39,299 nucleotides of DNA, taken from contig JAFWUI010000037.1 in assembly GCA_017524145.1 (NCBI GenBank), positions 1 through 39,299 on the forward strand, given 5' to 3'. Below the pieces are notes generated by a model. The model saw nothing but the letters and a program-made list of their open reading frames with translations. It had not been told where the DNA came from and ran no database searches. The DNA is from Oxalobacter sp. (GTDB lineage: Bacteria > Pseudomonadota > Gammaproteobacteria > Burkholderiales > Burkholderiaceae_D). A program made the position numbers and the translations under genes. Shown in pieces: positions 1 to 22,841 of this stretch; positions within the stretch are counted from its first letter, which is position 1; every line of letters begins with the position of its first letter.

Positions 1-78
1 ATCACGGACTGTCCTGCCTGACTCAACAGCCTTGAGTATGTTCAGTATCTGTGTCTCGCTGAATCTTGATTTCTTCAT
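1..78 (-). CDS. IS3-family transposase OrfA, N-terminal fragment (runs off the window)
   Basis: The reverse strand encodes 26 residues beginning MKKSRFSETQILNILKAVE. This resembles the helix-turn-helix start of OrfA proteins of IS3-family elements, which bind the IS ends and are joined to the OrfB integrase by frameshifting. A good ribosome binding site (AGGAG) lies 8-9 bases before the ATG. The gene continues beyond position 1, so OrfB and the other IS end cannot be seen. The IS abuts the left attachment repeat of the integrative element, so it inserted at or just outside that boundary. The family call rests on the short N-terminus only. Confidence 0.8.
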   Translation of the reverse strand, partial: MKKSRFSETQILNILKAVESGRTVRD

Positions 79-141
79 TCCGTTCTCCTGATTCCGGGAG
101 AACTCCAATTTTACATGCACCTATTTTAGGGGATGGCTACA
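1..141 (-). mobile_element. End of an IS3-family insertion sequence (partial)
   Basis: The truncated OrfA start is preceded by about 60 bases that should contain the IS terminal inverted repeat. Read on the minus strand, the outer end starts TGTAGCCATCCCC followed by TAAAATAGG, which resembles the TG...CCCC tips of IS3-family ends. Similarity to the right-hand copy of the tRNA-His downstream repeat begins at about 140, so the IS edge is placed near 141. The exact tip and any target duplication cannot be confirmed without the other end. Confidence 0.6.
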
Positions 142-252
142 AGTGTGTGACAGTATTTTGCCTAAAATGCGTTAATTCATTGATTTTAAGCAAAAAAATA
201 GTCGCCCTTGAGCGACCATTGAGGATTCTTTGGGGGAAGATGGGGCTCGAAC
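140..252. repeat. Left attachment-site repeat of the integrative element (diverged 3' end of tRNA-His plus its terminator)
   Basis: This block of about 110 bp is repeated in the same orientation at 11243-11357 with only a few mismatches and a 2-base indel. It contains the last part of a tRNA-His gene (GAAGATGGGGCTCGAAC, 236-252), a copy of the tRNA terminator hairpin around 200-219 with a T-run on the minus strand, and AT-rich downstream sequence. Homology to the tRNA stops right after the T-loop sequence, as expected for a site-specific insertion by a tyrosine integrase. The copy cannot make a tRNA. Confidence 0.85.
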
Positions 253-307
253 TGGAATCCTAATATCTTGTTTTATAAGAATTACCAATTTCGCATAAGA
301 ACCATCT

Positions 308-324
308 GTTCCCTAAACTGTTCC
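308..324. promoter_or_regulatory. Possible integrase arm-type site (left end)
   Basis: GTTCCCTAAACTGTTCC here recurs with one difference at 11203-11219, in the same orientation, so both ends of the element carry it just inside the attachment repeats. Tyrosine integrases of the P4 and lambda type bind such arm sites as well as the core. An arm-site role is inferred from position only. The rest of 253-492 holds no convincing gene. Confidence 0.45.
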
Positions 325-492
325 TAATCTAAGTCACTACCTGAATTTCAAGCCCACAGTGCTCGCAAATTCCTTACGTTTGCATTCTATCAGAGAAGAT
401 ATTCAATATCCATCGGCTGACCAAACAGCCGGTTTCCCATGCTCAGAACATCCACCATAAATACCAATGAGAAAGCAACGCCTGGGGAGATT

Positions 493-927
493 ATGGACGA
501 CAAAATCAAGACAAGATTGTTATACGCAACTATTGAGGCATACGGTGGAATACACGAATTTCTGGATGCATTGGCTGAAAAAGTGAAGAACCATGAAATC
601 ACAGAACAGATACAACATCTGACAGAAGTTGGTGACACCATGACCGGCTACCCTACCAGCAGGGACAAGATTTACCGTCATTACATGAACAAGGCTATGC
701 AAAAGGCTAAACGGTATGACCGTAGGAACAAGCCTGAGAAAGCTAATCGATACTACAAGACTGTAAACAACCTGTTAAGCAGATTCATGGGAAGCATCCC
801 TAAAGGTCAGGAGAACCCTAACGACATCTTTGACAGGCTATCCAGAAAACTCCCTGCCTATTATCAGAAACGCACGGTAGAGAACAGTGCCAAACATCTT
901 TACCACCCAAAGCATAGTCGGTACTGA
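493..927 (+). CDS. Hypothetical protein with YGGI motif
   Basis: I do not recognise this 144-residue protein. The frame is open from an ATG at 439, but that codon has no ribosome binding site. The ATG at 493 follows GGGGAG at good spacing, so I start there (MDDKIKTR...). The product is rich in Lys, Arg, Asn and Tyr, is predicted soluble, and has a basic C-terminal half. Residues near the N-terminus (EAYGGIHEFLDALAEKV) resemble a stretch of the low-complexity protein encoded at 5258-6127 (EQYGGIEPLVEALESVV), so the two may share a short domain. It is the leftmost gene of the element and converges on the serine recombinase. Confidence 0.6.
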   Translation: MDDKIKTRLLYATIEAYGGIHEFLDALAEKVKNHEITEQIQHLTEVGDTMTGYPTSRDKIYRHYMNKAMQKAKRYDRRNKPEKANRYYKTVNNLLSRFMGSIPKGQENPNDIFDRLSRKLPAYYQKRTVENSAKHLYHPKHSRY

Positions 928-1045
928 TGTCCTGAAAATTTTGGTCTGCTGGACCTGATTTTTTCACCTGACCGGTAATTTTGATTTTGGAATGTTTTTG
1001 AAATTCCGGTCTGGACAACACCCAACTTGAAGGGGGGGGTCAGGA

Positions 1046-1166
1046 CAAGGCTAATGGAAATTTTGGGGATGAAAATCTGAACAGGAACTGTGTTAATCTG
1101 CGATTCTACATTAGAATCTTTTCAAGTTTCCCCTGACGATTGTCAGGGGATTTTCCATCAGCCTTG
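1046..1166. repeat. 15-bp inverted repeat flanking the 3' side of the serine recombinase gene
   Basis: CAAGGCTAATGGAAA at 1046-1060 is matched in inverted orientation at 1152-1166 (one mismatch, 91 bp between arms). The spacer carries a separate hairpin (CCCCTGAC/GTCAGGGG, about 1131-1150) followed by TTTT on the plus strand, which could act as a terminator between the convergent genes. The remaining sequence from 928 to 1174 shows no gene. The arms could be recombinase sites or simply part of a larger RNA fold. Confidence 0.45.
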
Positions 1167-1174
1167 CCCCATAA

Positions 1175-1735
1175 TCATGATGCCATTGCAGGACGCAGGT
1201 ACTTGTAAAGAGTCCCTCTACTTATATTCAGGTCTTTGGCAATCCTGGCTTTAGGGATTCCAAGTTTTACCATCTCACCAATCTTGGCAATCTGTTCATC
1301 TGTCACTTCCTGCTTGCGTCCAAGGTGAATTCCTTTGGCACGGGCAGCGATAATCCCCTCACGTTGTCTGGCAAGAATCATATTCCGTTCGAATTCCGAG
1401 AATGCGCCAATCATGGAAAGCATCAGTTTTGCCATCGGTGAATCATCCTTGGAATCAAAGGTCAGGTTTTCTTTGACAAACTCCACAGATACCCCCCTGT
1501 CAGTCAGGTCTTTCACCATATTCAGCAAATCAGCAAGATTGCGTGCCAGCCTGTCCATGCTATGGACAACCAGAACATCACCTTCACGGATATACGCCAT
1601 CAGTTCCTTCAATGCAGGACGGTCAGTATTCTTGCCAGATACCTTATCTTCATAGACCTTTTCAACCTGTACATCAGCAAGCTGTCTGTCTGTATTCTGG
1701 TCTGTGGTAGAAACACGTTTGTAACCGATTCTCAT
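1175..1735 (-). CDS. Small serine recombinase (resolvase/invertase family)
   Basis: This 186-residue protein has the full layout of a small serine recombinase such as Tn3 resolvase or the Hin and Pin invertases. The nucleophile Ser9 lies in YKRVSTTDQ, the active-site segment SMDRLARN covers residues 59-66, and a long E helix begins near FSEFERNMI. A C-terminal Hin-type helix-turn-helix spans roughly residues 143-183 (IAKDLNISRGTLYKYL). Such enzymes bind inverted sites and resolve multimers or invert DNA. The ATG has a good ribosome binding site (AAAGGGGATG). A perfect inverted repeat lies in its promoter region (1754-1818), fitting autoregulation or a res-like site. Resolvase and invertase cannot be told apart from the sequence alone. 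Confidence 0.93.
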   Translation of the reverse strand: MRIGYKRVSTTDQNTDRQLADVQVEKVYEDKVSGKNTDRPALKELMAYIREGDVLVVHSMDRLARNLADLLNMVKDLTDRGVSVEFVKENLTFDSKDDSPMAKLMLSMIGAFSEFERNMILARQREGIIAARAKGIHLGRKQEVTDEQIAKIGEMVKLGIPKARIAKDLNISRGTLYKYLRPAMAS

Positions 1736-1753
1736 CTTTCATCCCCTTTCAAA

Positions 1754-1818
1754 GTGTTCATTAACCTATTACTGTTCAGATGTGTATAATAATAACACAA
1801 AATGGCTTTAATGAACAC
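1754..1818. promoter_or_regulatory. Inverted repeat in the serine recombinase promoter (operator or res-like site)
   Basis: GTGTTCATTAA at 1754-1764 and its exact reverse complement at 1808-1818 enclose 43 bp just upstream of the recombinase start. A further half-site-like TTGAACAC lies near 1873. The enclosed AT-rich stretch (TATAATAATA) could hold the recombinase promoter. Recombination sites of small serine recombinases commonly lie next to their gene and double as operators, so this is my candidate. Confidence 0.5.
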
Positions 1819-1928
1819 GCAAAACAGGGGTTTTAGATGATTTTTTCACTGTGTAATAAGGTGTACCTTTTTGAACACTGGTAAAGATGGAAATCAGACG
1901 GGTTGAAAAACAGGAAACCCTGTTGCAA

Positions 1929-2414
1929 TCATTTTGACTGTTTCATTTTGCCCTTGGCGTAAGCAGGTGTTGATTGATGCACAGTGACATCAGGATTGAT
2001 GGTTGCACTGTAATTCAATGATGGCAGAGCTTCTGCATCAACCTTGCCTGATGATGCCAAAGCCTTTGTCAGGACATAGCACCATTCCCTGACCTGACTG
2101 TAAACGAATGAACGGTATCCTTCTGGCAAGGATTCCAGCACATCGATCAGATTATAGGCAATGGCTGTTGATGATGGTGACATCAGGAACAAGGTGGACA
2201 CTGGCACATCAAGCACATTGGCAATCTTGCTGATGGTTGCAAGACTGGGCGCAACACTCCCACGCTCAATCCGTGAGATTGATAATGTCTGAAGGTCAAC
2301 CAGTTCTGCCAGACGTTCCTGTGTCATCTTGGCAGATTTCCTTGCGGTTGCAATATTCCTTCCAAGCTGTTGTTGGATGTCAGAAGTACCTTTGTTCATA
2401 ACGGTATAAGCCAA
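1929..2414 (-). CDS. XRE-family transcriptional regulator
   Basis: This protein of up to 161 residues has a Cro/C1-type helix-turn-helix at about residues 15-70 (NIATARKSAKMTQERLAEL, then LSISRIERGS). It is probably the repressor of the element. The C-terminal 90 residues are unlike known sensor domains and contain no protease motif that I can see. The start is uncertain: a TTG at 2414 lies only 2 bases from the GGAG sequence, while the ATG at 2399 is 17 bases away. A palindrome at 2481-2499, between this gene and the divergent lipoprotein operon, is a plausible operator, so it may control both directions. Confidence 0.85.
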   Translation of the reverse strand: MAYTVMNKGTSDIQQQLGRNIATARKSAKMTQERLAELVDLQTLSISRIERGSVAPSLATISKIANVLDVPVSTLFLMSPSSTAIAYNLIDVLESLPEGYRSFVYSQVREWCYVLTKALASSGKVDAEALPSLNYSATINPDVTVHQSTPAYAKGKMKQSK

Positions 2415-2480
2415 ATCTCCTTGTTTAGCCTGTACACGCTATGTTGTGTGGATTCCTTTCATCATGTAATATCGTTATAT

Positions 2481-2499
2481 GATTGTTAACTATACAATC
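2481..2499. promoter_or_regulatory. Palindromic operator candidate between the XRE gene and the lipoprotein operon
   Basis: GATTGT and ACAATC form a perfect 6-bp inverted repeat around a 7-base centre (TAACTAT). It sits in the AT-rich divergent intergenic region, 67 bp or more upstream of the regulator start and 62 bp upstream of the first lipoprotein. XRE repressors bind such dyads. No strong -35/-10 pair stands out. Confidence 0.4.
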
Positions 2500-2561
2500 T
2501 ACGAATACGAAACCCTCCAATTAATGACAGACGTTATCCCAACAGACTTGAGGTAGCCTAG

Positions 2562-2759
2562 ATGAAGAAAGCTCTGACAATCATATTCACCATACTTGCA
2601 TTGGCATCCTGCAAAGCAGGTAATGAGAATAAAGCATCAACTGTAAAAGGACTGGCTGTAGGTGCTGAAAAAGCTTTCAAAAAGACATCAAATGACAGTG
2701 GAATACCCGTCGGTGCTGGTTCAGCTTACAAGAAAATTGGTATCAAGGAAAACAAATGA
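2562..2759 (+). CDS. Small predicted lipoprotein
   Basis: This 65-residue protein begins with a short signal sequence and a lipobox (LASC, Cys at about 17), so it is expected to be lipid-anchored in the cell envelope after export. The mature part is short, basic and Gly/Lys-rich, with a repeated VGA motif (GLAVGAEKAFKK, PVGAGSAYKK). I do not recognise a family. GAGG lies 8-9 bases before the ATG. Its stop overlaps the start of the next lipoprotein gene (ATGA), so the two are translationally coupled. Confidence 0.65.
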   Translation: MKKALTIIFTILALASCKAGNENKASTVKGLAVGAEKAFKKTSNDSGIPVGAGSAYKKIGIKENK

Positions 2760-3298
2760 TTAAAAAATTACTGACTATTTTGTTTACTGTACTCGCATTG
2801 ACATCATGTAAAGAGGGCGACAACAGCAGTAAATCATCCAACAAAGTAACTGATAAAGTAGAAAATCCTGCAAGAGAAATTAAGCCAAAACCTTCTGAAA
2901 TTTCCATCGCGAATGAAATTAATGTCTCAGATATACAATTTAATAAAGGCGAAGGATATAACTTAACAATAAGTGCCAATGTTACGAATAACTCTTCCAG
3001 AAATATAAAAGGAATTCAGTTTTTAGTTAATTATGATGACATGTTTGGAAATCGCATTGCACAGAAATCATACATGATTAAAGAAATTCTGAATAGTGGA
3101 GAAACCAAAACTTTCACATGGAAAATATACTCCACATGGCATGCCGCGGAAGATTTAGACAACATAAAATATGGTGGTACTGCTGATGGGAAAATTTATA
3201 CCTTAGTTAAAAATGGCGAGGTTAGGGTTACCTTCATAAATCATGCCATAGCTTATGAAGATGGGACGTTAGTCAGGAATAATGATATTATTTTTTAA
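2756..3298 (+). CDS. Predicted lipoprotein, possible FxLYD-like beta domain
   Basis: The 180-residue product has a signal peptide and lipobox (LTSC, Cys at about 18), a Ser/Lys-rich linker and a beta-rich domain of about 110 residues. The segment SANVTNNSSRNIKGIQFLV followed by NYDDMFGN resembles the FxLYD-type pattern of bacterial surface lipoproteins. That is a pattern guess, not a firm family call. It overlaps the preceding small lipoprotein gene by 4 bases and has AAGGA at proper spacing. The gene is clearly more AT-rich than the chromosome to the right, which fits horizontal acquisition. Confidence 0.7.
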   Translation: MIKKLLTILFTVLALTSCKEGDNSSKSSNKVTDKVENPAREIKPKPSEISIANEINVSDIQFNKGEGYNLTISANVTNNSSRNIKGIQFLVNYDDMFGNRIAQKSYMIKEILNSGETKTFTWKIYSTWHAAEDLDNIKYGGTADGKIYTLVKNGEVRVTFINHAIAYEDGTLVRNNDIIF

Positions 3299-3316
3299 TT
3301 TTTATCGATTGGAGTT

Positions 3317-3580
3317 ATGATGAATACATTTACAAAAAATATTTTAGATAAAAATTCAATAAACATGATATTAAATCAACTTAGCAATAAATATGGCTAA
3401 TCAATAAGTTCTGAAGCATTATGTATAAAAGAAACTGAAGATGAAAAATTGAATAATACCCTCCTATTCTTAAAAGACAACGGATATATTAAAGCATTAA
3501 CAAGATTCTATATGGGCAAGGAGGTTGTTATTGATGCAAAAATAACAGTTAAAGGGCAAGAATATATATCAAAAATATGA
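3317..3580 (+). pseudogene. Small gene split by one in-frame stop codon
   Basis: From ATG 3317 (or 3320, which has the better GGAG spacing) to TGA 3578 the frame would encode about 87 residues but for a single TAA at 3398-3400 after 27 codons. The part after the stop reads as an ordinary small domain (LLFLKDNGYIKALTRFYMGK, then KITVKGQEYI), reminiscent of small winged-helix phage proteins ending in a T.KG..YI motif. No alternative start with a ribosome binding site restores the second part. A recent nonsense mutation is the simplest reading. A base-calling error or stop read-through is also possible. Confidence 0.5.
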
Positions 3581-3600
3581 TTATGCCGGGGGGTTTGAGA

Positions 3601-4113
3601 ATGAAAAAAATCATCACGTTAGCTGTATTGTCTGTTTTACTTGTCGGTTGTGGCAACAAGAAAGAAGTAAAATCCGAACAGACCAATCAAGCTGTTACAT
3701 CTCAGCAGATAACCCAACCATCAGCTTCTAATAATGTAGAAGGATTGCAGGGTGTTCAGGGTACACAGAACCTAAAGAACACTGAACCGAACAATCCAGC
3801 AAACCGTAATTGGGAATTTGTTGCAGATATTGACAATGAAGTCAAATCATATATGGATTACAGTTCAATTGACAAACAGCGTCATAGGGTTTGGACTAAA
3901 CTGGATTACGTTGCAGGCGAAAGTAAAGGACTGATTGCTGTCGATTATATCGAAGCAGATTGCGGACAGAATGAAACAAGATTCCTGAAGGAATATTTCA
4001 TCAGAGATGGTGCAGTTGTCGAAGAACATCCTCGTCCATCAATGTGGAGAAAAGCACCTAAGAAATCATTTCATGGATATGTTTTGGATTATGTCTGCGG
4101 AAGGGTTGACTGA
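3601..4113 (+). CDS. Predicted lipoprotein with surface-adhesin-E-like domain (copy 1)
   Basis: The 170-residue product has a signal peptide and lipobox (LVGC, Cys17), a Gln/Ser/Asn-rich linker of about 40 residues, and a C-terminal domain with WEFV, YMDYSSIDK, HRVWTK and a paired Cys pattern (ADC...YVCGRVD). This layout matches the Adhesin_E type of small secreted domain, and that assignment comes from motif resemblance only. ATG 3601 is chosen over the in-frame start at 3577 because it begins the signal peptide. It is the first of two tandem paralogues. Its linker is almost identical to that of copy 2, while the signal peptide and C-domain have diverged. A conserved untranslated block with inverted repeats follows. 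Confidence 0.75.
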   Translation: MKKIITLAVLSVLLVGCGNKKEVKSEQTNQAVTSQQITQPSASNNVEGLQGVQGTQNLKNTEPNNPANRNWEFVADIDNEVKSYMDYSSIDKQRHRVWTKLDYVAGESKGLIAVDYIEADCGQNETRFLKEYFIRDGAVVEEHPRPSMWRKAPKKSFHGYVLDYVCGRVD

Positions 4114-4211
4114 TAAATAAGGTTGAATGAAACCACTTTGAGGAACACTGTAAGAACAAAGTTTGAGCACATTTTCAATTTTGACAGTTTGAAAGTAAAA
4201 GTACATTTCAT
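4089..4211 (-). CDS. Candidate 40-residue antisense small protein (copy 1)
   Basis: Antisense to the end of lipoprotein copy 1, an ATG at 4211 is preceded by a near-perfect GGAGGT at 6-base spacing. It opens 40 codons, MKCTFTFKLSKLK at the start and SFNLIYQSTLPQT at the end. The second duplication copy has an equally long ORF with the same tail, the same reading frame through the inverted-repeat arm and its own strong ribosome binding site, but a different N-terminus. The tail lies partly opposite lipoprotein code, so its conservation may be passive. A small regulatory or toxin-like peptide is one possibility, and chance is not excluded. Confidence 0.35.
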   Translation of the reverse strand: MKCTFTFKLSKLKMCSNFVLTVFLKVVSFNLIYQSTLPQT

Positions 4212-4311
4212 AATTTCACCTCCATTCCTGAGAAATATGATATATGTAAAAAGTGTTAATACAGTAAAGTATGTGTTCCCCAGAACTACACAAGTTCCCC
4301 GAAGTGGTTTC
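4129..4311. repeat. Segment bounded by an 18-bp inverted repeat (copy 1)
   Basis: The arms are GAAACCACTT-tga-GGAAC (4129-4146) and GTTCC-ccg-AAGTGGTTTC (4294-4311): 10 plus 5 paired bases around an internal loop, enclosing 147 bases. The equivalent arms behind lipoprotein copy 2 differ in sequence but remain complementary. The enclosed AT-rich DNA holds the start and ribosome binding site of the antisense 40-codon ORF. It could be a structured RNA or an invertible DNA segment. Confidence 0.6.
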
Positions 4312-4349
4312 GCCCGATTATTGTATCATACATAAAAGATGTTATGGTC

Positions 4350-4398
4350 ATCACTCGTTTTTGAGTGATAAATTAAAAACCCCACTGTTTGCGCAGTG
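4350..4398. terminator. Double hairpin, terminator truncated on the plus strand
   Basis: A first hairpin (ATCACTC/GAGTGAT) is followed by CCCCACTG-tttgcg-CAGTGGG. Unlike the copy at 5209-5237, the stem is followed here by AGAAGAAGGG and the next gene rather than a T-run, so plus-strand termination should be weak and lipoprotein copy 2 may be read through. On the minus strand the stem is followed by TTTTTAATTT and should still terminate. This is probably the joint of the tandem duplication. Confidence 0.6.
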
Positions 4399-4419
4399 GG
4401 AGAAGAAGGGAATAAAAAC

Positions 4420-4932
4420 ATGAAGAAACTATTAGTTGCAGTCACACTGGCTTCAGTGTTCATCACTGGCTGTGGCAACAAGAAAGAAGTTAAATCCGAA
4501 CAGACCAATCAAGCTGTTGCATCACAACAGATAACCCAACCATCAGCTTCCAATAATGTAGAAGGATTGCAGGGTGTTCAGGGTACACAGGCTATTGATA
4601 ACCTTAACAACCCATTAAACAGGAAATGGGAATTTGTATATACAGTGGACGATGAGGTTGAGGTTTATATGGATTATAGTTCCATAGATAAAACCAAACA
4701 TAGGGTCTGGACAAAAATCAAAGGAATCAAGGGTGATTTCAATGGTACAGAAGGTGCAATCTATGTTGAGGGTGATTGTCGAACCAATGAAACCCGTCAA
4801 CTGAAAGGATATTATTACAAGAATGGAAATTTAGTTGAGGAACACCCACATCCTAGAAATTGGGAACCAGCAACAGATAAAAAATCATTCAACGGCTATA
4901 TCCTAGACCATGTCTGCGGAAGAGTTGACTGA
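4420..4932 (+). CDS. Predicted lipoprotein with surface-adhesin-E-like domain (copy 2)
   Basis: This 170-residue paralogue of the gene at 3601 has a lipobox (ITGC, Cys18), the same Gln/Ser-rich linker (about 39 of 40 residues identical) and a diverged C-domain (WEFVYTVDDEVE, VYMDYSSIDK, HRVWTK, VCGRVD at the end). ATG 4420 follows AAGGGA and starts the signal peptide, so the in-frame start at 4396 is rejected. The gene begins immediately after the truncated terminator of copy 1, so the two are probably one transcription unit. The role is unknown. The product is expected to sit in the outer membrane or face the periplasm. Confidence 0.75.
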   Translation: MKKLLVAVTLASVFITGCGNKKEVKSEQTNQAVASQQITQPSASNNVEGLQGVQGTQAIDNLNNPLNRKWEFVYTVDDEVEVYMDYSSIDKTKHRVWTKIKGIKGDFNGTEGAIYVEGDCRTNETRQLKGYYYKNGNLVEEHPHPRNWEPATDKKSFNGYILDHVCGRVD

Positions 4933-5018
4933 TAAATAAGGTTGAATGAAACTGCTTTGAGGAGTTCTGTCATCAATGATGTTATGTTGATAATAATATT
5001 TGAGGTTTCAAGAATCAT
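4896..5018 (-). CDS. Candidate 40-residue antisense small protein (copy 2)
   Basis: An ATG at 5018 follows AAAGGAGGAT at 8-base spacing and opens 40 codons (MILETSNIIINITSLMTE at the start, LLKAVSFNLIYQSTLPQT in the body, then WSRI). Upstream on the same strand a promoter-like pair CTGTCA, 17 bases, TATAAT lies inside the inverted-repeat segment. The central part is hydrophobic but not a clear membrane helix. Length and tail match the copy-1 ORF while the N-terminus does not. The frame stays open upstream to 5141 without another good start. Coding is a hypothesis. Confidence 0.38.
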   Translation of the reverse strand: MILETSNIIINITSLMTELLKAVSFNLIYQSTLPQTWSRI

Positions 5019-5139
5019 AGTTCTATCCTCCTTTCTGTCACTATTGACAATATTCTCAAAAATGACAATAAACAATATTATATAAACAATTGTAAAAGAT
5101 GACAGTCTCCCCAGAGTAATAACTCTTCGAAGCAGTTTC
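4948..5139. repeat. Segment bounded by a 19-bp inverted repeat (copy 2)
   Basis: The arms are GAAACTGCTT-tga-GGAGTT (4948-4966) and AACTCTTCG then AAGCAGTTTC (5121-5139). Compared with copy 1 the outer stem has C-G changed to T-A and A-T changed to G-C, and the inner stem has changed on both sides, so pairing is kept. The enclosed 154 bases share little with copy 1. The sequence outside the arms is nearly identical between copies. Confidence 0.6.
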
Positions 5140-5169
5140 ACCCGATTATTGTATCATACATAAAAGATG

Positions 5170-5238
5170 TTGTGGTCATCACTCGTTTTTGAGTGATAAA
5201 TTAAAAACCCCACTGTTTTGTGCAGTGGGGTTCTTTTA
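5170..5238. terminator. Double hairpin and intact bidirectional terminator
   Basis: An ATCACTC/GAGTGAT hairpin is followed by CCCCACTG-ttttgtg-CAGTGGGG (5209-5231) and TTCTTTT on the plus strand. On the minus strand the same stem is followed by TTTTTAATTT. It should end transcription both of lipoprotein copy 2 and of the convergent low-complexity gene that stops at 5258. Confidence 0.85.
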
Positions 5239-5257
5239 TGCGATTAAAGAATTATTA

Positions 5258-6127
5258 TCAGTAACCATAATCACCGGAATATCCGCCCGGCTGACCAAGT
5301 TTTTCTTTGCCATAATATTTCTTCTTCCATGTGTCATAAGTTGATGGTTTTGATTTTGTGTTTGATGAACCATATTTCTGGGAAGCATAATCTGTTTGTG
5401 CAAACGGATTCATACTTGCTGAATAATCACCCCCAACCATACTCTGACCAACCTGTTTATTTGATGAAGCAATATTCTGCCTAATCTGTTTTGGAGTAGG
5501 CTTCTTACCAACAGGTTTCCTTACAACAGGTTTCCGTACAGGGGCTTTCATCCTGTTTGCCAGTTTTGGTGCTGACGCTTTGGGGGATGATGCTTGGGTT
5601 GCTGACGCTTTTGGTGCACCCTGTTGTTTAACCTGAGTTCCAGTTTGAGTGGTTTGGTTCAGGTTGACATTACCTGTTGCTGTAGCTTTCGCACCCTGAA
5701 TTGCATTAGGTTTGAATGTTGGTGCTGAAACTGGCTTTGCTTCAGGTCTTGGCGAATGGTGGATGCCAGTTTCCAGTTCATCTTGGTCCCACTGTTCCTG
5801 CGCACGTCCAACTGCATCATTGGAATAACGGTTCCAGCCAAAAGGCTTGGCGGCAGGCTTGGCTGAAGGCTGTTGGGCAACTTGGGCAGTCTTGTTTGCA
5901 ACCTGTGTCGGGGTCTTTGCCGGTGTTGTTACTGAAGGTTTGGTCACAGCAGGCTTGGACTGGTACTGTGAAGCATAAGACTGGTTGACTTGTGATGCAC
6001 TGTGTGGCTTCACTGTGTATGAAGGTTTGGTGACAGTTGGTTTAGGTGATGCAGGTTTGGTCACAACTGATTCCAATGCTTCCACCAATGGTTCAATACC
6101 ACCATACTGTTCAACCAGTGATAACAA
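5258..6127 (-). CDS. Pro/Lys/Thr/Gln-rich low-complexity protein (start uncertain)
   Basis: I do not recognise a family. About 290 residues are dominated by P, K, T, A, Q and S, with runs such as KPVVRKPVGKKPTP, and end in a Tyr/Gly-rich tail (GGYSGDYGY). A more ordinary stretch lies in the middle (PFGWNRYSNDAVGRAQEQW), and near the N-terminus LVEQYGGIEPLVEALE resembles the protein at 493. The frame is open to a TTG at 6319, but that region contains a minus-strand terminator (6125-6154) and a better small ORF in another frame, so I place the start at the TTG at 6127 or nearby. No clear ribosome binding site supports any start. The protein is very basic and may bind DNA or surfaces. Confidence 0.55.
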   Translation of the reverse strand: MLSLVEQYGGIEPLVEALESVVTKPASPKPTVTKPSYTVKPHSASQVNQSYASQYQSKPAVTKPSVTTPAKTPTQVANKTAQVAQQPSAKPAAKPFGWNRYSNDAVGRAQEQWDQDELETGIHHSPRPEAKPVSAPTFKPNAIQGAKATATGNVNLNQTTQTGTQVKQQGAPKASATQASSPKASAPKLANRMKAPVRKPVVRKPVGKKPTPKQIRQNIASSNKQVGQSMVGGDYSASMNPFAQTDYASQKYGSSNTKSKPSTYDTWKKKYYGKEKLGQPGGYSGDYGY

Positions 6128-6154
6128 AAAAGCCCCGCCATGGAAGACGGGGCG
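6125..6154 (-). terminator. Rho-independent terminator after the 34-residue peptide gene
   Basis: Read on the minus strand, GCCCCG-tcttccatgg-CGGGGC is followed by TTTTTTG. It sits 30 or more bases past the stop of the small gene at 6186-6290 and before the low-complexity gene, so the two are probably separate transcription units or linked by attenuation. Confidence 0.75.
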
Positions 6155-6185
6155 AAGACAGGAATTGTTGGAACTTTCGGAGATT

Positions 6186-6290
6186 CTAGTGACAGATATA
6201 ACAGTCATCTTCCCTGGGCTCACTTTCAATGAATGAAACCAGTGCCTGAAACACCAGAAACAAGCACAATCCGACAATCTTTTCTGCCAT
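6186..6290 (-). CDS. 34-residue predicted membrane peptide
   Basis: An ATG at 6290 preceded by AGCAGGA at good spacing encodes MAEKIVGLCLFLVFQALVSF followed by a polar tail with two Cys (DDCYICH) and a TAG stop. One hydrophobic stretch of about 16-18 residues could span the membrane, with an acidic, Cys-containing tail on the other side. It lies downstream of the AlpA-like gene and is followed at once by a terminator. It overlaps the open upstream part of the low-complexity frame, which I regard as non-coding there. The function is unknown. Lysis-like, toxin-like and membrane-anchor roles are all possible. Confidence 0.5.
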   Translation of the reverse strand: MAEKIVGLCLFLVFQALVSFIESEPREDDCYICH

Positions 6291-6352
6291 GATGATTCCT
6301 GCTGGTACCTGTCAAACAAAATCCCCTGTATCGGTATTTATAATGCGTACAT

Positions 6353-6553
6353 TCACCTTGTATGATGCCCATGCCTAGACTTCAGCACCTGTCTGTCCAT
6401 CCAATCCTGAATGTCATCTGAACGCCATGCGACAACCCGTTTACCCAACTTTGCAGGCATGGGCAGGAACCCGTCCTTACACCATCGGTAAATAGTTGTG
6501 CGGTGCACTTTCAGAATCTTTTCCATGTCAGGAATCCTGAGAAACTTCGCCAT
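6353..6553 (-). CDS. AlpA-family helix-turn-helix regulator
   Basis: The 66-residue protein (MAKFLRIPDMEKIL...) has a MerR-like winged-helix pattern: RIPDMEKILKVHRTTIYRWC, then a wing with FPMPAKLG-type spacing and RVVAWRSDDIQDWM. This matches the AlpA regulators of P4-like elements, which activate excision or integrase genes and act as excisionases. The frame is open to 6589, but the Met at 6553 starts the conserved part. The ribosome binding site is weak for both. It is the second AlpA-like gene in the element; the other is at 8253-8543. Confidence 0.85.
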   Translation of the reverse strand: MAKFLRIPDMEKILKVHRTTIYRWCKDGFLPMPAKLGKRVVAWRSDDIQDWMDRQVLKSRHGHHTR

Positions 6554-6809
6554 AGATGAACCCACATTAAATTGAACATATACAGGCATGAATGCTTGCC
6601 ATAGTATTTATGTCAATTCAAGCCTCATCATCCAGACCATCATTGCAGAAGCATCCAGAATGTTCCATCCCATGAAGATGCCCATAGTCTGGCTAATGCG
6701 CACCAATCTTTTGATTAGATGGACGATGCTCCAATACATATGGATACGTACAGATGCGCATGATGCAGATACGGATAACAGATATCCCAGAACCACCCTA
6801 AATTTGGCT

Positions 6810-6836
6810 CAGAACGCCCTGTGTGGCGTTTTCTTG
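6810..6836 (+). terminator. Rho-independent terminator (plus strand)
   Basis: GAACGCC-ctgtgt-GGCGTT is followed by TTCTTGTTTT. No plus-strand gene is recognised upstream, so it may end a small RNA or protect the region from outside transcription. Confidence 0.65.
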
Positions 6837-7080
6837 TTTTACCTGACAATCCATAGCCAACAGTGATGGACAGCCTGCTGTAACGCCTAAAAGGCCTTTT
6901 GAGGCTATGTGGTACTGTTCACCAACATGAATTGAAATATTGAAATGATGATGGTGAATGACTGATGGAACCACTGATCCGGATAGTCCTGCCAATACCA
7001 TCAGGCTCATTACCAATACCATCAGTACTTGCCATGAGTAGTAATACCTGATTGGTCAACTGCCATCATAACCAGCTAAT

Positions 7081-7104
7081 CAGCCCTTTGTTTGGGCTTT
7101 TTGC
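7081..7104 (+). terminator. Rho-independent terminator (plus strand)
   Basis: CAGCCC-tttgttt-GGGCT is followed by TTTTGCC. As with the one at 6810-6836, no plus-strand coding gene is visible before it, which leaves room for an untranslated plus-strand RNA between 6840 and 7100. Confidence 0.6.
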
Positions 7105-7245
7105 CTTCATCATGGGTAATGACACAGTAACCGGAAAAGCCTGATATAGAGGCTGTAAAGCTGTCTATGAGGCTGTTTATCACTGTTGGATGATTATGGG
7201 AATTTACATTGACTGTCATCCATATCAGGACAACATTCCATGGTT

Positions 7246-7289
7246 ACATTGGAAACACATTGGAACCACATTCGAATCACATTCCCATC
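7246..7289. repeat. Four tandem 11-bp iterons
   Basis: ACATTGGAAAC, ACATTGGAACC, ACATTCGAATC and ACATTCCCATC follow each other without gaps, one per DNA helical turn. Loose ACATT copies lie at about 7206 and 7233. Between about 7345 and 7402 the reverse motif AATGT occurs six times, giving an inverted layout. Iterons of this kind mark initiator-binding sites of replicons. Confidence 0.7.
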
Positions 7290-7576
7290 TAATCATTGAA
7301 CCATTGATGATGCCATGATGATGGAATTGTTCAGGGTAATGATGGTGCAATGTGGATGAATGTTGAATGTAATGTTGTCAATGTAATGTCTGGATTACAG
7401 TCACCCATGCAAATCATCATAATTGCCAAGTAACCATAATCCGTACCCGTATTTTGGTTACACTAATCCTATCAAGCCCTGAAATCCATTTTTTGGACAT
7501 GGCTTCGCCATATAGGGAACCATTGCAGATTCCCCCCAAAGCTGGTTTCCCAGCATAATGGAATATCCTTTTGGAT

Positions 7577-7619
7577 GATGCAGACGGCAATGGCATACAC
7601 TGCCATCACTGCCTGCATC
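7577..7619. repeat. Interrupted hairpin downstream of the Rep gene
   Basis: GATGCAG (7577) and ATGGCA (7590) pair with TGCCAT (7601) and CTGCATC (7613), leaving a 5-base loop and an internal bubble of 6 bases on each side. No T-run follows on the minus strand, so it is a poor terminator. Being 22 bases past the rep stop codon, it could be the nicking or single-strand origin hairpin. Confidence 0.45.
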
Positions 7620-7641
7620 ATGTATTTATGAGTTATGTTGT

Positions 7642-8256
7642 TTATGCGTGATATGGCGTGGTTTCCATGTTATCCACGTCAATATCATTGTTGCCATCAT
7701 CAAAGTTGATGGACCGCATCAGGTACTCGACACACCGCTCAGGTGTGCCTGTCACCGGTCTGACATCATGCTGACCATAATCATCATGACGCATACCCTG
7801 AATCTGCCTGTTGGTTTTTGCTTGATTGGAAACAAAATCACAGAATTCCTGGATATGTTCAGGCGTATCGATCATTTCATCTGGAATTTGCAGGAACATG
7901 TGGGAATGGACATGTCCTGATTGCCCGTTGTGTTGCTGTCTCACTGGCAGACAAGCCAGCCTGATATCCTTTTCCTGATAATCCTTGCCAAAAAATTGGC
8001 GATGGACAATGTCCAGTAACTTGCGATGAGCCCTTGAAATTGTTTTCTCGGCAACCATCGGCTGACCTTTGGAATTTTCTTTCTGATGGTAAGTGAATGA
8101 ACATAGGCAATATCTTGCATCATTGTCTTTTTCCAGCATTTCAAAGTACATCTGTCTGATTGCATTTTTGGCATCTTCCCTCATCTTCTTTTGGATTGAT
8201 GCACGTTTGTCATCATCTTCAATACGCCTAATCGTATAGTGTTTCTTGGATTTCAT
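7642..8256 (-). CDS. HUH-type replication initiator (inovirus Gp2-like Rep)
   Basis: This 204-residue protein shows the three rolling-circle Rep motifs in order: motif I near 51-58 (CSFTYHQ), the metal-binding HUH motif II at 115-122 (HVHSHMFL, H115 and H117), and motif III with the probable catalytic Tyr178 in EYLMRS, a YxxK/R form. Such proteins nick one strand at an origin and stay joined to the 5' end through the Tyr. The size and the segment after the HUH motif fit the small Gp2-like Reps seen in integrated elements and filamentous phages. The start overlaps the stop of the AlpA-like gene (ATGA) with GGAGAT at good spacing, so the two are coupled. Putative iterons and a hairpin lie just downstream. 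Confidence 0.8.
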   Translation of the reverse strand: MKSKKHYTIRRIEDDDKRASIQKKMREDAKNAIRQMYFEMLEKDNDARYCLCSFTYHQKENSKGQPMVAEKTISRAHRKLLDIVHRQFFGKDYQEKDIRLACLPVRQQHNGQSGHVHSHMFLQIPDEMIDTPEHIQEFCDFVSNQAKTNRQIQGMRHDDYGQHDVRPVTGTPERCVEYLMRSINFDDGNNDIDVDNMETTPYHA

Positions 8257-8543
8257 GCCAAATCTCCTTTCATGGATTCAGCATGACAGTCACGTTGCGC
8301 AGTGCAATCAGCCATCCAAGCATCAATCTCAGATTTCCGCCAGCCAACGGCATAACCGCCCAATTTGACCCGTTTTGGAAAATTTCCTGCTTTCTCCATC
8401 TTGCGACGGGTTTCTTTACATAAACCAGAAATCAGCTTGACTTCTGGTTCCCTGAGAAAGTAATCCTGATTTGGTGGAAGATTGCCAGCAGAAACAGTAG
8501 CATGAGGTAAGGGATTGATGGTTTGTTTTTTTTTATTATTCAT
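8253..8543 (-). CDS. AlpA-family helix-turn-helix regulator (upstream of rep)
   Basis: The 96-residue protein has a polar leader of about 25 residues and then an AlpA-like domain: YFLREPEVKLISGLCKETRR, FPKRVKLGGYAVGWRKSEID and AWM. It probably controls the rep operon and possibly the integrase. AAAGGAAA lies 6-7 bases before the ATG. The codons after the start contain a run of nine A's, a possible slippage site. A 26-bp palindrome at 8652-8677 lies upstream, and a close relative of that palindrome lies upstream of the integrase, suggesting both are bound by the same regulator. The stop overlaps the Rep start. Confidence 0.85.
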   Translation of the reverse strand: MNNKKKQTINPLPHATVSAGNLPPNQDYFLREPEVKLISGLCKETRRKMEKAGNFPKRVKLGGYAVGWRKSEIDAWMADCTAQRDCHAESMKGDLA

Positions 8544-8651
8544 AAATTTTCCTTTTTGTAAGATTTAAAAATATGTCAAACAATGACCTTTGAGGACAAC
8601 TGCCTGACAGCTTGGAAACCATCTTGCCAGAAGGAAAACGTATTGTTATTT

Positions 8652-8677
8652 ATCTGAGCCTCATTTGAGGCTCAGAT
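8652..8677. promoter_or_regulatory. 26-bp perfect palindrome, shared operator candidate
   Basis: ATCTGAGCCTC, a 4-base centre ATTT, and GAGGCTCAGAT form a perfect 11-bp dyad 109 bp upstream of the AlpA-rep operon. The sequence at 11138-11163, upstream of the integrase, matches it except for the central pairs. The rest of 8544-8871 is AT-rich with a terminator at 8763-8795 and no gene. Confidence 0.6.
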
Positions 8678-8762
8678 AGAATCAGATACACATATTTTAT
8701 TAAATCAAATGATTATATTTTGTAGAATTTTATGGACGGGTGTTTAATAGCCTAAAAATATA

Positions 8763-8795
8763 AAAACCACAGAATCTTATGAATCCTGTGGTTTT
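8763..8795. terminator. Bidirectional terminator after the coiled-coil gene
   Basis: AAAACCACAG and CTGTGGTTTT form a 10-bp stem around 13 bases. On the minus strand the stem runs into TTTTTATATTTTT, so it should end the integrase-side transcript. The plus strand has only a short T-run. Confidence 0.75.
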
Positions 8796-8871
8796 CTGGC
8801 AGTTTGTGGTTTACTGCGTAGGGTTAGTCTGTTATACAGTTGAAAAGATTAAGATGGTATTCTTGGAAAAA

Positions 8872-9723
8872 TCACATCATTTTTATTTTATCGCCTGAAA
8901 CTACTTCTTCAAAGGCATCCCTTAAAATATTGCGGACAGTGTTTTCAGATAAACTGCCGTCGAGAGTTCTTGCCTCTTTAAGTTTATCCAAAGTATTTAC
9001 AATATTGGAGATTCCATCAAACTTTGGGATGGTTTTTCCTGTAGTATCATCAATGTGAACTGGAATGCGATATTTGTCTATCGCCATTCCAGCAACCAGT
9101 CTTCGGTATGATACAAGATTTCTCCCTGTTGGATTTTCTGAGAAACCTTTTAATGATTTTTGCAATTTTTGATTCTGTTGCTCAAGGTCAACAATTCTGG
9201 CTTTCAGCTTCTCAATCTCATTGGTGTTTTCAGAAGGCATTGTTTTGTTCAGATGTTTTTCGATAAAACTGTCCAATTCTTCTTTCTTGATTACAAACTG
9301 GTATTCTCCTGCTATGAAAGGTGGCATATCAAGATTAGTTTGAAAATCAGGGTCATTGGCAGGGTTTTTGAAATCATATAAGAAAATATAACTTATACCA
9401 TCTCGTTCCAGTTCCACATGCCCCTGAAGTAAGTCTGATAGATTGTGAGCTTTAACCCCCCCAGTTTTTTCTCGTTCTTCCTCAACAGCACTGATTTCGC
9501 TGGCATTCATAGCTAGGTCAAATACGCCAATGAGCCTTTCATTTTTTCGGTTTTTCTCGTTTCTGACCCATACCCCTTCAGGAAAATCAATAGAGAGTTT
9601 CAACTTACAGTCAAGGGCTAAATCATAAATATCAGTTTCAGTAGCTGTTATATCAAGGGTTGAAAGATATTTACAGGCTTCAGGAACAGTCAATATGCTT
9701 CTAAGTGATAAAAGATTTTTCAT
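8872..9723 (-). CDS. Hypothetical protein with coiled coil, downstream of the integrase
   Basis: This 283-residue soluble protein belongs to no family I can name. The N-terminal 170 residues are mixed alpha/beta with a segment on ligand-like strands (YIFLYDFKN). Residues about 172-195 form a coiled coil (EIEKLKARIVDLEQQNQKLQ), and the C-terminus (about 205-283) is helical, with a conserved-looking start (GRNLVSYRRLVAGMAIDKY) typical of small regulators carried next to integrases on genomic islands. AAGG lies 9 bases before the ATG. It is 98 bp after the integrase on the same strand and shares its terminator. Confidence 0.65.
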   Translation of the reverse strand: MKNLLSLRSILTVPEACKYLSTLDITATETDIYDLALDCKLKLSIDFPEGVWVRNEKNRKNERLIGVFDLAMNASEISAVEEEREKTGGVKAHNLSDLLQGHVELERDGISYIFLYDFKNPANDPDFQTNLDMPPFIAGEYQFVIKKEELDSFIEKHLNKTMPSENTNEIEKLKARIVDLEQQNQKLQKSLKGFSENPTGRNLVSYRRLVAGMAIDKYRIPVHIDDTTGKTIPKFDGISNIVNTLDKLKEARTLDGSLSENTVRNILRDAFEEVVSGDKIKMM

Positions 9724-9821
9724 AACAGCGTGCCTTTAGCTATTGTACCTGTTGGGAAATCCATGTAAGGCGGTTAGGCTGACCGCTTTTCACCCCGTCG
9801 GGCTATGCATGGCTTGTTCAG

Positions 9822-11063
9822 TTATGCAGCTTTGACTAGTCTCAGCATGTTCCTGTGGCGGATTGAGTCAATATAATCTGCCCAACCTTGCAGAAGTGCT
9901 TTGCGTTCTTTTCGAAATGGTGCACGATGATATGCGGCAAGAATTTTGTTTTTCTCTTTATGAGCCAGTTGACGCTCAATGACTTCACGCCGGTATCCCA
10001 ATTCGCCTAATGTGCTAGCCGCTAAAGCCCTGAAACCATGACCTGTCATGCGTCCATGATAGCCCATGCGTTTCAATGCCATCAGGATAGCACCATTACT
10101 CATATGACTGCGTGGATTTTTCCAGCTGGGGAAAAGATGTTCCCTGTGCCCAGACAGGGTTTTCAGTTCTGTCAGTAGAGCAATAGCCTGTTTCGGCAAG
10201 TCAATCAGATGGTCAACCTGAACGGGATTGATTTTTCTGCTTCCCATTTTCATCCGTTGCCAAGGGATAATCCAGACACCTTTTTCAAGGTCGATTTCTG
10301 ACCATTTTGCGCCAATCAATTCATTGGTACGCATGAATAGAAGCATCATCAGGTTGATGGCAATGCGTGTGCCCGCAAACATATTGATTTTATCCAGTTC
10401 TTTGAGAAATTCTGGCAATTCTTCCGATTGAATGGTGGAGTAATGCCCTTCTGTACGTCTGTTCAAGACACCATTCAGACAAGTGGCTGGATGATTTGGG
10501 GTTACTATTTCCCTCTGGGTAGCAAAATTGAAAATACGCACAATATCACGCTTGACCTTACCGGCGGTTGTTGCGGCACGTGCTTCAATCTTTTTCAGCA
10601 AGCCAATAATCTGACGTGGTTTTATTTCAGCAATCGGAATATTCCCCAAGGTAGGGAAGATGTCCTGTTCCATCCTGGAAAGTGTTCTGGTTGCCGTGAT
10701 GTCCTTCCATTCAGATAAGGTATTCTGATGCCAGTCACGGGCAACCTTTTCAAAGGTGTTTTCAGTTTTGGCTTTCTCAGCTTGTTCACGTTCCTCCCAG
10801 ACTTTCCGAGGGTCGAGACCTTGCGCTACCAATGTACGGACTTCTCTGCGTTTCTCACGGGCATATTCTAGCGATACATCAGGATATTTGCCGAAAGAAA
10901 GTTGTATGTATTTGCCATCTAGGCTGATTTTCATTCTCCATAACTTTGAGCCTTTGGTGGTTATGTACAGAAATAGCCCATCCCCATCGAACAGGGAATA
11001 GTTGTTAGCTTTGCTCTTTGCCTTGTTGACTTGGGTTGGTGTCAGAGGTTTTACAGTTTTCAT
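9822..11063 (-). CDS. P4-type tyrosine recombinase (integrase) of the element
   Basis: The 413-residue integrase has the N-terminal arm-binding domain of P4-like integrases (DUF4102-type; LFDGDGLFLYITTKGSKLWR near 24-43), a SAM-like core-binding domain (about 104-190) and the catalytic domain with Arg245 (MRTNEL), Lys272, His342 and Arg345 (GHGFRALA), His368 (LAHKEKN) and Tyr378 (AAYHRAP). It catalyses insertion and excision at the tRNA-His 3' end. Length is normal for the family and all catalytic residues are present, so it should be active. It is transcribed away from the tRNA, and a palindrome (11138-11163) and arm-like repeats lie in its 5' region. Confidence 0.96.
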   Translation of the reverse strand: MKTVKPLTPTQVNKAKSKANNYSLFDGDGLFLYITTKGSKLWRMKISLDGKYIQLSFGKYPDVSLEYAREKRREVRTLVAQGLDPRKVWEEREQAEKAKTENTFEKVARDWHQNTLSEWKDITATRTLSRMEQDIFPTLGNIPIAEIKPRQIIGLLKKIEARAATTAGKVKRDIVRIFNFATQREIVTPNHPATCLNGVLNRRTEGHYSTIQSEELPEFLKELDKINMFAGTRIAINLMMLLFMRTNELIGAKWSEIDLEKGVWIIPWQRMKMGSRKINPVQVDHLIDLPKQAIALLTELKTLSGHREHLFPSWKNPRSHMSNGAILMALKRMGYHGRMTGHGFRALAASTLGELGYRREVIERQLAHKEKNKILAAYHRAPFRKERKALLQGWADYIDSIRHRNMLRLVKAA

Positions 11064-11137
11064 TTTATTTTCCTTTAAAAAACGTGGTAGAAACTACACA
11101 GCCGTACTTTTATCAGGAATGCAAAGCGATGAAATTT

Positions 11138-11163
11138 ATCTGACCCTCAAATGAGCCTCAGAT
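11138..11163. promoter_or_regulatory. 26-bp imperfect palindrome upstream of the integrase
   Basis: ATCTGACCCTC, centre AAAT, GAGCCTCAGAT: the dyad matches that at 8652-8677 in spacing and outer bases, with two central pairs broken. It lies 75 bp before the integrase start, so a regulator controlling the AlpA-rep operon may also act on integrase or on recombination at this end. Confidence 0.55.
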
Positions 11164-11202
11164 TGATTTTTAAGAACAGTTTTTTTCGTACATCCGCAGG
11201 AT

Positions 11203-11219
11203 GTTCCCAAAACTGTTCC
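11203..11219. promoter_or_regulatory. Possible integrase arm-type site (right end)
   Basis: GTTCCCAAAACTGTTCC repeats the left-end site at 308-324 with one change. An inverted half copy (GAACAGTTTT) lies at about 11174-11183. Confidence 0.45.
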
Positions 11220-11242
11220 CATTTTTCGTGGGTTTGAATGGT

Positions 11243-11357
11243 CAAGTGTGTGACAGTATTTTGCCTAAAATACGTTAATTCATTGATTTTAAGCAAAAAA
11301 ATGGTCGCCCTTGGGCGACCATTGAGGATTTTCTGGGGTGGAAGATGGGGCTCGAAC
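11243..11357. repeat. Right attachment-site repeat of the integrative element
   Basis: This is the same-orientation partner of 140-252. It starts in AT-rich sequence, includes the tRNA-His terminator and runs into the 3' part of the intact tRNA gene. The element is therefore the roughly 11 kb between the two copies. Confidence 0.85.
11290..11324 (-). terminator. Terminator of the tRNA-His gene
   Basis: On the minus strand GGTCGCCC and GGGCGACC form a tight hairpin followed by ATTTTTTTGC, about 12 bases after the tRNA 3' end. It lies inside the att repeat and is duplicated at the left end. Confidence 0.85.
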
Positions 11358-11410
11358 CCACGACAACCGGAATCACAATCCGGGACTCTACCAACTGAGC
11401 TACTCCCACC
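11334..11410 (-). tRNA. tRNA-His (GTG anticodon)
   Basis: The minus strand reads as a complete tRNA. The acceptor stem GTGGGAG pairs with CTTCCAC, with the extra 5' G opposite C73 that is typical of tRNA-His. The D arm contains AGCTCAGTTGGTAGAG, the anticodon loop ATTGTGATT carries GTG, the T arm contains GGGTTCGAGCCC, and CCA is encoded. A strong promoter precedes it. The integrative element sits immediately downstream and leaves this gene intact. Confidence 0.97.
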
Positions 11411-11439
11411 ATAGATGAGTTAACATCATAGAACTAAAA

Positions 11440-11468
11440 ATTATACAAATATATCCCGGAATTGGCAA
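11440..11468 (-). promoter_or_regulatory. Sigma-70 promoter of tRNA-His
   Basis: On the minus strand TTGCCA (11468-11463) and TATAAT (11445-11440) are separated by exactly 17 bases, placing the transcription start about 20-25 bases before the mature tRNA 5' end. Confidence 0.8.
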
Positions 11469-11509
11469 GTAATTCTTTCCCTGTCAATAGGGTAAACGTT
11501 GGAAAGTTA

Positions 11510-22593: not shown

Positions 22594-22796
22594 TTTATTC
22601 TCCTCAGAAAGGTCAGGTTCAATGACCGCCAGTTGTGTTGGCGGTGGATTCTTTGTTGGGTATTCTCCTGGTTATGGATGACAGGTACCAGTAGTATGAC
22701 TATTTAAACACATCTTTGGAAAAGTTGCAGGAAGTGGCTCATTTTTTCTGGAAAGATGATTTTATGTAACGCAGAGGAGCTTGGAAAAAGCAATGA

Positions 22797-22824
22797 AAAA
22801 ACCGCCATTGGTATGGCGGTTTGG
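22797..22824 (-). terminator. Rho-independent terminator downstream of ppk2
   Basis: On the minus strand AAACCGCCAT-acca-ATGGCGGTTT is followed by TTTC, 20 bases past the ppk2 stop codon. Confidence 0.85.
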
Positions 22825-22841
22825 CTAGGGCTGATGCAGAG

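Follow-up and report, generated by a model that had tools for sequence, protein, structure and literature searches.

Two diverged hairpins behind tandem lipoprotein genes on an apparent mobile island retain long-range pairing and may form minus-strand mini-mRNAs

Two tandem lipoprotein genes on an apparent genomic island are each followed by a long-range inverted repeat, and the two resulting hairpins have retained their pairing while the roughly 150-nt interiors diverged almost completely. In both copies, we observed pairing between the arms, compensated base changes and, on the minus strand, a Shine-Dalgarno sequence followed by an ATG and an open frame. Judging from the sequence, we tentatively read each hairpin as the main part of a short mini-mRNA on the minus strand, with a leader that folds back and a 40-codon open reading frame (ORF), a reading that we regard as possible but short of probable.

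The window analyzed here, meaning the whole 39-kb stretch of DNA, is one contig of a 1.81-Mb draft genome. The hairpins are located on what looks like an 11-kb island, probably mobile, which is framed by a 96-nt direct repeat (140-235 and 11243-11338) and by a second direct repeat of 27 nt (226-252 and 11331-11357). A tRNA gene is present at 11337-11409, together with genes for a tyrosine integrase (9822-11063), an AlpA regulator (6353-6589) and a serine recombinase of the resolvase/invertase family (1175-1735); the last of these accounts for the statement in the first-pass annotation that the element encodes such an enzyme. The identity between the framing repeats (140-252 and 11243-11357) extends about 90 nt past the tRNA end on both sides, so a second, related element may lie to the left. 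Adjoining the integrase gene is an int-alpA RNA (RF02996) at 9748-9813, with 48.6 bits against a cut-off of 35.8. Adjoining the serine recombinase gene, TGTTCATTAA/TGAACAC repeats occur in both orientations at 1746-1886, a cluster that is possibly the recombinase's own recombination site; the TGAACAC-type 7-mer was found within the lipoprotein genes too.

Lipoprotein gene 1 (3601..4113, plus strand) encodes a 170-aa protein matching Pfam Adhesin_E (PF16747, E=2.4e-8), with a lipobox read by eye as ...VLLVGCG. Its tandem paralogue, gene 2 (4420..4932, plus strand), matches the same family (PF16747, E=1.1e-7); the proteins are 65% identical, and the repeat spacings are 816-828 bp. The inverted repeats start 15 and 14 nt past the stop codons of genes 1 and 2, respectively. 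In copy 1, the 18-nt arms at 4129..4146 and 4294..4311 are 89% complementary with 147 nt between them; in copy 2, the 20-nt arms at 4947..4966 and 5121..5140 are 90% complementary with 154 nt between them. The first-pass annotation had reported inverted repeats behind both lipoprotein genes, with pairing retained between arms about 150 bp apart. The repeats are indeed present there, beyond chance, and the spacing agrees; of the span given (4129..5139), the start stands and the end does not, because the copy 2 arm reaches 5140.

Alignment of the arms over 18 columns showed 16 Watson-Crick pairs plus one G-T and one A-C in copy 1, and 16 Watson-Crick pairs plus two G-T in copy 2. Between the copies, the 5' arm has changed at columns 6, 7, 17 and 18, and the 3' arm at columns 6, 7, 13, 14, 17 and 18. 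All four 5'-arm changes (4/4) are compensated on the 3' arm with Watson-Crick pairing retained, and all four are transitions on both sides; the positional coincidence of 5'- and 3'-arm changes alone has a chance of 0.0049. Two further columns are altered on the 3' side only, from G-C to G-T and from A-C to A-T. The earlier claim that two neighboring pairs had changed on both sides agrees with this alignment, and the reported inner-stem change from GGAAC/GTTCC to GAGTT/AACTC corresponds to columns 17 and 18 plus one further pair in copy 2. Read as plus-strand RNA, all standard pairs are retained, whereas in the minus-strand reading column 14 is lost in copy 2. Over both copies, three G-T cells (wobble on the plus strand only) stand against one A-C (wobble on the minus strand only). 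In the outer helix of 19 pairs, 14 pairs are invariant, one has changed on one side, four have changed on both sides and none is broken, as counted from a minus-strand alignment in which columns unpaired on the minus strand were excluded from the structure. The covariation comes from two paralogues only.

Inverted repeats of this kind are rare in the genome. With at least 16 of 18 pairs and 80-250 nt between the arms, we detected three clusters in 636,903 bases of the rest of the genome, a baseline covering about one third of it, and four in the 39-kb window, two of which are these hairpins. Two runs on shuffled sequence gave one cluster in 324,258 bases and none in 351,944 bases; at least one cluster arose in 11 of 200 shuffled islands, and five shuffled windows yielded 9, 0, 0, 0 and 0 unclustered matches. 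A third long-range hairpin on the island (1043-1169; arms 16/18 paired, 91 nt between) starts 5 nt past the serine recombinase stop codon, with fold z-scores of -7.0 on the minus and -2.8 on the plus strand; searches of plasmids, phages and the remaining 12 genus genomes found no relative of it. A similar hairpin is located upstream of gyrA, off the island, at 28740-28857 (16/18 paired, 82 nt between; fold z-scores -4.6 and -4.3); it has an inner GATTC...GAATC stem in common with the one at 1043-1169. Separately, an inverted repeat at 22719-22862 (14/16 paired, about 112 nt between) overlaps the 3' end of a minus-strand ORF (22842-23711).

Both hairpins fold far better than shuffled sequence. 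The whole-hairpin fold z-scores on the plus and minus strands were -4.8 and -5.6 for copy 1 and -6.4 and -6.3 for copy 2, respectively, and none of 300 shuffles was as low in any of these four tests (two copies by two strands). The interiors alone folded weakly: on the plus strand, 75/300 (copy 1) and 11/300 (copy 2) shuffles were as low, and on the minus strand, 8/300 and 19/300, respectively. Minus-strand folds reached -57.5 kcal/mol versus -49.2 kcal/mol on the plus strand in copy 1, and -64.0 versus -60.0 kcal/mol in copy 2; the shuffle z-scores do not separate the strands. Each hairpin also has an inner stem and a side hairpin, which differ in sequence between the copies.

The tandem duplication of the lipoprotein units looks old. 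Synonymous sites of the paralogues are near saturation, with a proportion different of 0.71-0.90 in four of five blocks; in aligned codons 21-60, the synonymous difference is only 0.22. The genes (3601-4932) are mosaics of near-alike and saturated blocks, as after partial gene conversion. Around the hairpins, the left flank is identical at 30 of 31 positions between the copies, and the right flank block at 77 of 78 (4313..4390 in copy 1 and 5141..5218 in copy 2). Either such alike blocks were homogenized by recombination or the flanks are under selection. The interiors compared in the same orientation were at most marginally alike (shuffles as good in 31/500, global, and 43/500, local). A mobile mini-element inserted twice was considered and rejected, as the homology extends past each hairpin on either side. 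Terminator-like hairpins were listed at 4380..4401 for copy 1, in the minus direction only, and at 5206..5232 after copy 2, on the plus strand.

Further investigation revealed a feature that the first-pass annotation had overlooked downstream of its promoter candidate, namely a Shine-Dalgarno sequence and a 40-codon ORF on the minus strand of each copy. The copy 1 ORF (4089..4211; 40 aa) starts with ATG at 4211, preceded by GGAGG at 4223-4219; the copy 2 ORF (4896..5018; 40 aa) starts with ATG at 5018, preceded by GGAGG at 5031-5027. The arrangement reads GGAGG, 7 nt, ATG in copy 1 and AAGGAGG, 8 nt, ATG in copy 2. The ORFs cross the left arm in a shared register, and the 3' part of each is antisense to the end of its lipoprotein gene. 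GGAGG-N(4-10)-ATG sites number ten on both strands of the whole window, and two of them belong to these ORFs. Among shuffled interiors (5000 each), the GGAGG-ATG arrangement occurred at rates of 0.0056 (copy 1) and 0.0124 (copy 2), and together with an ORF of at least 30 aa at 0.0022 for each copy; these ORF tests are partly dependent, given that the copies share an ancestor and that the ORF was spotted before testing. No stop interrupts the ORF frame over the entire AT-rich interior of either copy (chance 0.031 for copy 1 and 0.013 for copy 2); for any minus frame, the chance is 0.099 (copy 1) and 0.028 (copy 2). One plus frame is open across the copy 1 interior as well.

Minus-frame translations were weakly alike (as good in 28/1000 global and 56/1000 local shuffles); among 18 frame pairs compared, a stop-filled plus pair scored z 2.43, above the z of 2.23 for the minus ORF frame, so we count protein similarity in the minus frame as weak evidence. 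The N-terminal halves of the peptides have almost nothing in common; their C-terminal part is identical, as the conserved arm and lipoprotein 3' end dictate. Because the interiors are otherwise without clear similarity (31/500), the Shine-Dalgarno sequence, ATG and open frame have outlasted the sequence around them. The minus frame is open further upstream, where copy 2 offers GTG at 5141 as a possible start; the corresponding open stretch of copy 1 contains no ATG, GTG or TTG, and we therefore took the ATG as the start. Peptide hydrophobicity is not beyond chance: the maximum 19-residue hydropathy was 1.70 (copy 1) and 1.19 (copy 2), as high in 160/500 and 64/500 shuffles, respectively. The GGAGG of copy 1 is almost fully paired (mean unpaired 0.002; 0/200 shuffles as low), and that of copy 2 is mostly paired (mean unpaired 0.179; 39/200 shuffles as low), with its ATG exposed. 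The minus-strand peptides matched no Pfam family. In positions 1-12000, none of six Rfam matches up to E 5 overlaps either hairpin; one of them, well short of its cut-off, extends over the flank from 5196. In copy 2, a hydrophobic 33-aa ORF on the plus strand (from 4984) was set aside, having no Shine-Dalgarno sequence by eye and no copy 1 counterpart.

The minus-strand promoter candidate proposed earlier is present in both copies as a TG-extended -10-like site, TGATACAAT, at 4328-4320 in copy 1 and 5156-5148 in copy 2, read by eye and with no good -35. These sites lie about 9-17 nt outside the right arm in both copies. As they are located in the nearly identical flank, their conservation carries little weight. 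A better minus-strand -35/-10 match (10/12), found in copy 2 only, lies inside the hairpin at 5105-5077; RNA made from it would not include the right arm, and copy 1 has no counterpart site.

In the arrangement that we tentatively favor, a minus-strand transcript convergent with the lipoprotein gene and overlapping its end would start just outside the right arm, about 3 nt before it. The ribosome-binding site and the 40-codon ORF would lie in mid-transcript, and the first 20 nt or so of the transcript would pair with the ORF portion forming the left arm. Local pairing would mask the ribosome-binding site, to a striking degree in copy 1 and an unremarkable one in copy 2, and translation would be blocked until the RNA was cut, refolded or displaced. 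Lipoprotein mRNA reading through the hairpin would be the perfect complement of the mini-mRNA and could serve as its antisense. From this layout we infer that such a transcript would be translated, that lipoprotein transcription would control it and that the peptide would have a toxic or other effect. No plus-strand antitoxin promoter stood out; inside the hairpins, 9/12 matches numbered four in copy 2 and zero in copy 1.

Two rival explanations also invoke RNA. The loss of one pair in the minus-strand reading and the better promoter match of copy 2 led us to place less weight on the minus-strand mini-mRNA and more on these rivals. The hairpins could be a structured 3' UTR of the lipoprotein mRNA on the plus strand, or a small RNA derived from it, which would stabilize the mRNA or act once processed, with CCUCC (an anti-Shine-Dalgarno sequence) and CCCCAG exposed. 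We consider this somewhat unlikely. It would account for hairpins that begin 15 and 14 nt past a stop codon and fold well on the plus strand (z -4.8 and -6.4), for the retention of all pairs on that strand and for wobble types that slightly favor it. Taken by itself, the interior of copy 2 folds well on the plus strand (11/300) and that of copy 1 at chance (75/300); CCUCC is unpaired in copy 1 but largely paired in copy 2, the center of CCCCAG being unpaired in both. Copy 1 has no listed plus-strand terminator, and a 3' UTR leaves unexplained both the minus-strand GGAGG-ATG arrangement with its 7-8 nt spacing and the shared open frame. The same Shine-Dalgarno sequence, ATG and open frame would be coincidence in both copies if the hairpin were the stabilizing head of a non-coding minus-strand antisense RNA controlling the lipoprotein genes, which we judge unlikely. 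The minus promoter-like sites and the overlap with both gene ends agree with such an RNA, and the copy 2 RNA could traverse gene 2 as far as the terminator-like hairpin (4401-4380, minus direction) that directly precedes this gene. Against such an RNA, gene 2 itself contains a further minus terminator-like site (4710-4694), and no such site was listed directly before gene 1.

The remaining explanations place the hairpins at the DNA level. A palindrome maintained by template-switch correction or gene conversion (as a cruciform, or a replication or recombination signal), with no RNA function, appears distinctly unlikely to us. The mosaic of homogenized and saturated blocks makes recombination between the paralogues likely, and four compensated changes that are all transitions on both sides are what a one-step correction could leave. 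Against this, the arms differ between the copies and escaped homogenization, the inner stem and side hairpin present in each copy are built from differing sequence, and such repeats are rare elsewhere in the genome (three clusters in 636,903 bases). We find it hardly credible that the hairpins are invertible segments flipped by the island's serine recombinase, despite a resolvase/invertase-family gene at 1175-1735 and inverted arms around promoter-like sites. Inverting one interior does not make it match the other (as good in 318/500 global and 226/500 local shuffles), the arms differ between the copies and, by eye, have no internal dyad of the sort expected of a serine-recombinase crossover site, and the TGTTCATTAA/TGAACAC repeats clustered beside the recombinase gene at 1754-1878 are absent from all four arms. 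The first-pass annotation had offered a structured RNA or an invertible segment; the first agrees with the retained pairing, and the second does not agree with the mismatched interiors. A structured RNA is the likeliest reading of the retained pairing.

We found no relative beyond the two copies in the plasmid, phage, viral-contig and relative-genome collections searched. A blastn search with 3577-5240 returned no plasmid records, and copy 1 DNA matched one of 100 relatives, its own genome. Copy 2 DNA matched 17 of 399 genomes of the order at E <= 0.01, namely its own and 16 others in which the matching pieces were 19-48 bases long and were taken as chance or terminator matches. Copy 2 was also absent from plasmids and matched four of 50,697 phage records, in pieces of 9-10% of the query at E 0.03 or worse; exact patterns gave no hit in viral contigs. 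A covariance model of the hairpins, R1, detected only the own genome, both among 13 genus genomes (1/13) and, with stricter filters, among 392 family genomes (1/392). The inner helices of R1 come from automatic alignment of barely alignable interiors, and the outer helix alone was counted as evidence; a plus-strand match of R1 on copy 2 (E 0.0013) reflects the palindrome. The lipoprotein 1 protein was not found in phages, plasmids or viral contigs, and in genome contigs it matched one locus, over residues 1-24 only. It was found in three of 60 relatives and two of 392 family genomes, the own genome being counted in both. Scanned whole, the lipoprotein 1 loci L003, L005 and L006 contained 5, 3 and 0 inverted repeats, respectively, none of them arm-like in length with 100-200 nt between. 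In the portions available of the literature on long-range type I toxin mRNAs, convergent antisense pairs, and host small RNAs and toxin-antitoxin systems, this element is not described.

If the minus-strand RNA were translated, each unit would be a compact addiction- or regulation-like device coupled to a surface lipoprotein of an 11-kb island, and such RNAs could swap nearly all of their sequence while retaining fold, start site and frame. If the hairpin were merely one of a 3' UTR, the pair would still be a clean paralogue example of compensated change in a long-range stem. A bolder proposal, which we hold to be quite improbable, is that a lipoprotein gene and a convergent self-folding mini-mRNA make up a new small-peptide unit of mobile islands. 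Lipoprotein read-through would supply an antisense that silences the peptide, loss of the island or of transcription would release it, and fast interior change would keep duplicated units apart with pairing retained.

Several known systems resemble parts of this arrangement. Integron attC sites are likewise imperfect inverted repeats following an ORF, conserved at their ends and free to vary inside; their left end carries RYYYAAC and their right end GTTRRRY. On the plus strand of our hairpins, GTTRRRY is confined to the left end and RYYYAAC is absent; on the minus strand, RYYYAAC is confined to the right end. Unlike in attC, the homology extends far past the hairpin, and attC was rejected. As in excludon-type convergent antisense pairs, genes on opposite strands would give transcripts with overlapping 3' ends; unlike in those pairs, a strong self-complementary fold and a very short ORF lie within the overlap here.

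The closest likeness is to type I toxin mRNAs; it is one of anatomy, and we do not claim that class for the hairpin units, as no antitoxin RNA was identified, peptide hydrophobicity is at chance and neither Pfam nor Rfam gave a matching family. The hok/sok family occurs on mobile elements, and covariation in its mRNAs was reportedly the subject of a 1997 paper. Unlike in hok/sok, no sok-like RNA was identified here and the peptides have no Pfam match, Pfam being the sole basis of the comparison with hok. The hok and aapA type I toxin mRNAs fold back in a similar style, and hok/sok mRNAs share with our hairpins long-range pairing and coupled base changes among relatives (PMC6733600). In aapA, the long-distance pairing itself sequesters the Shine-Dalgarno sequence, whereas the long stem here lies outside it (PMC6733600). 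The opposite strand here, unlike in aapA/IsoA, is a lipoprotein mRNA, and the likeness is drawn from anatomy, not sequence. The Helicobacter pylori aapA/IsoA system nevertheless matches these units in having a small ORF, long-distance 5'/3' pairing and multiple copies per genome, and, most clearly for copy 1, in placing the Shine-Dalgarno sequence in local hairpins (PMC6733600).
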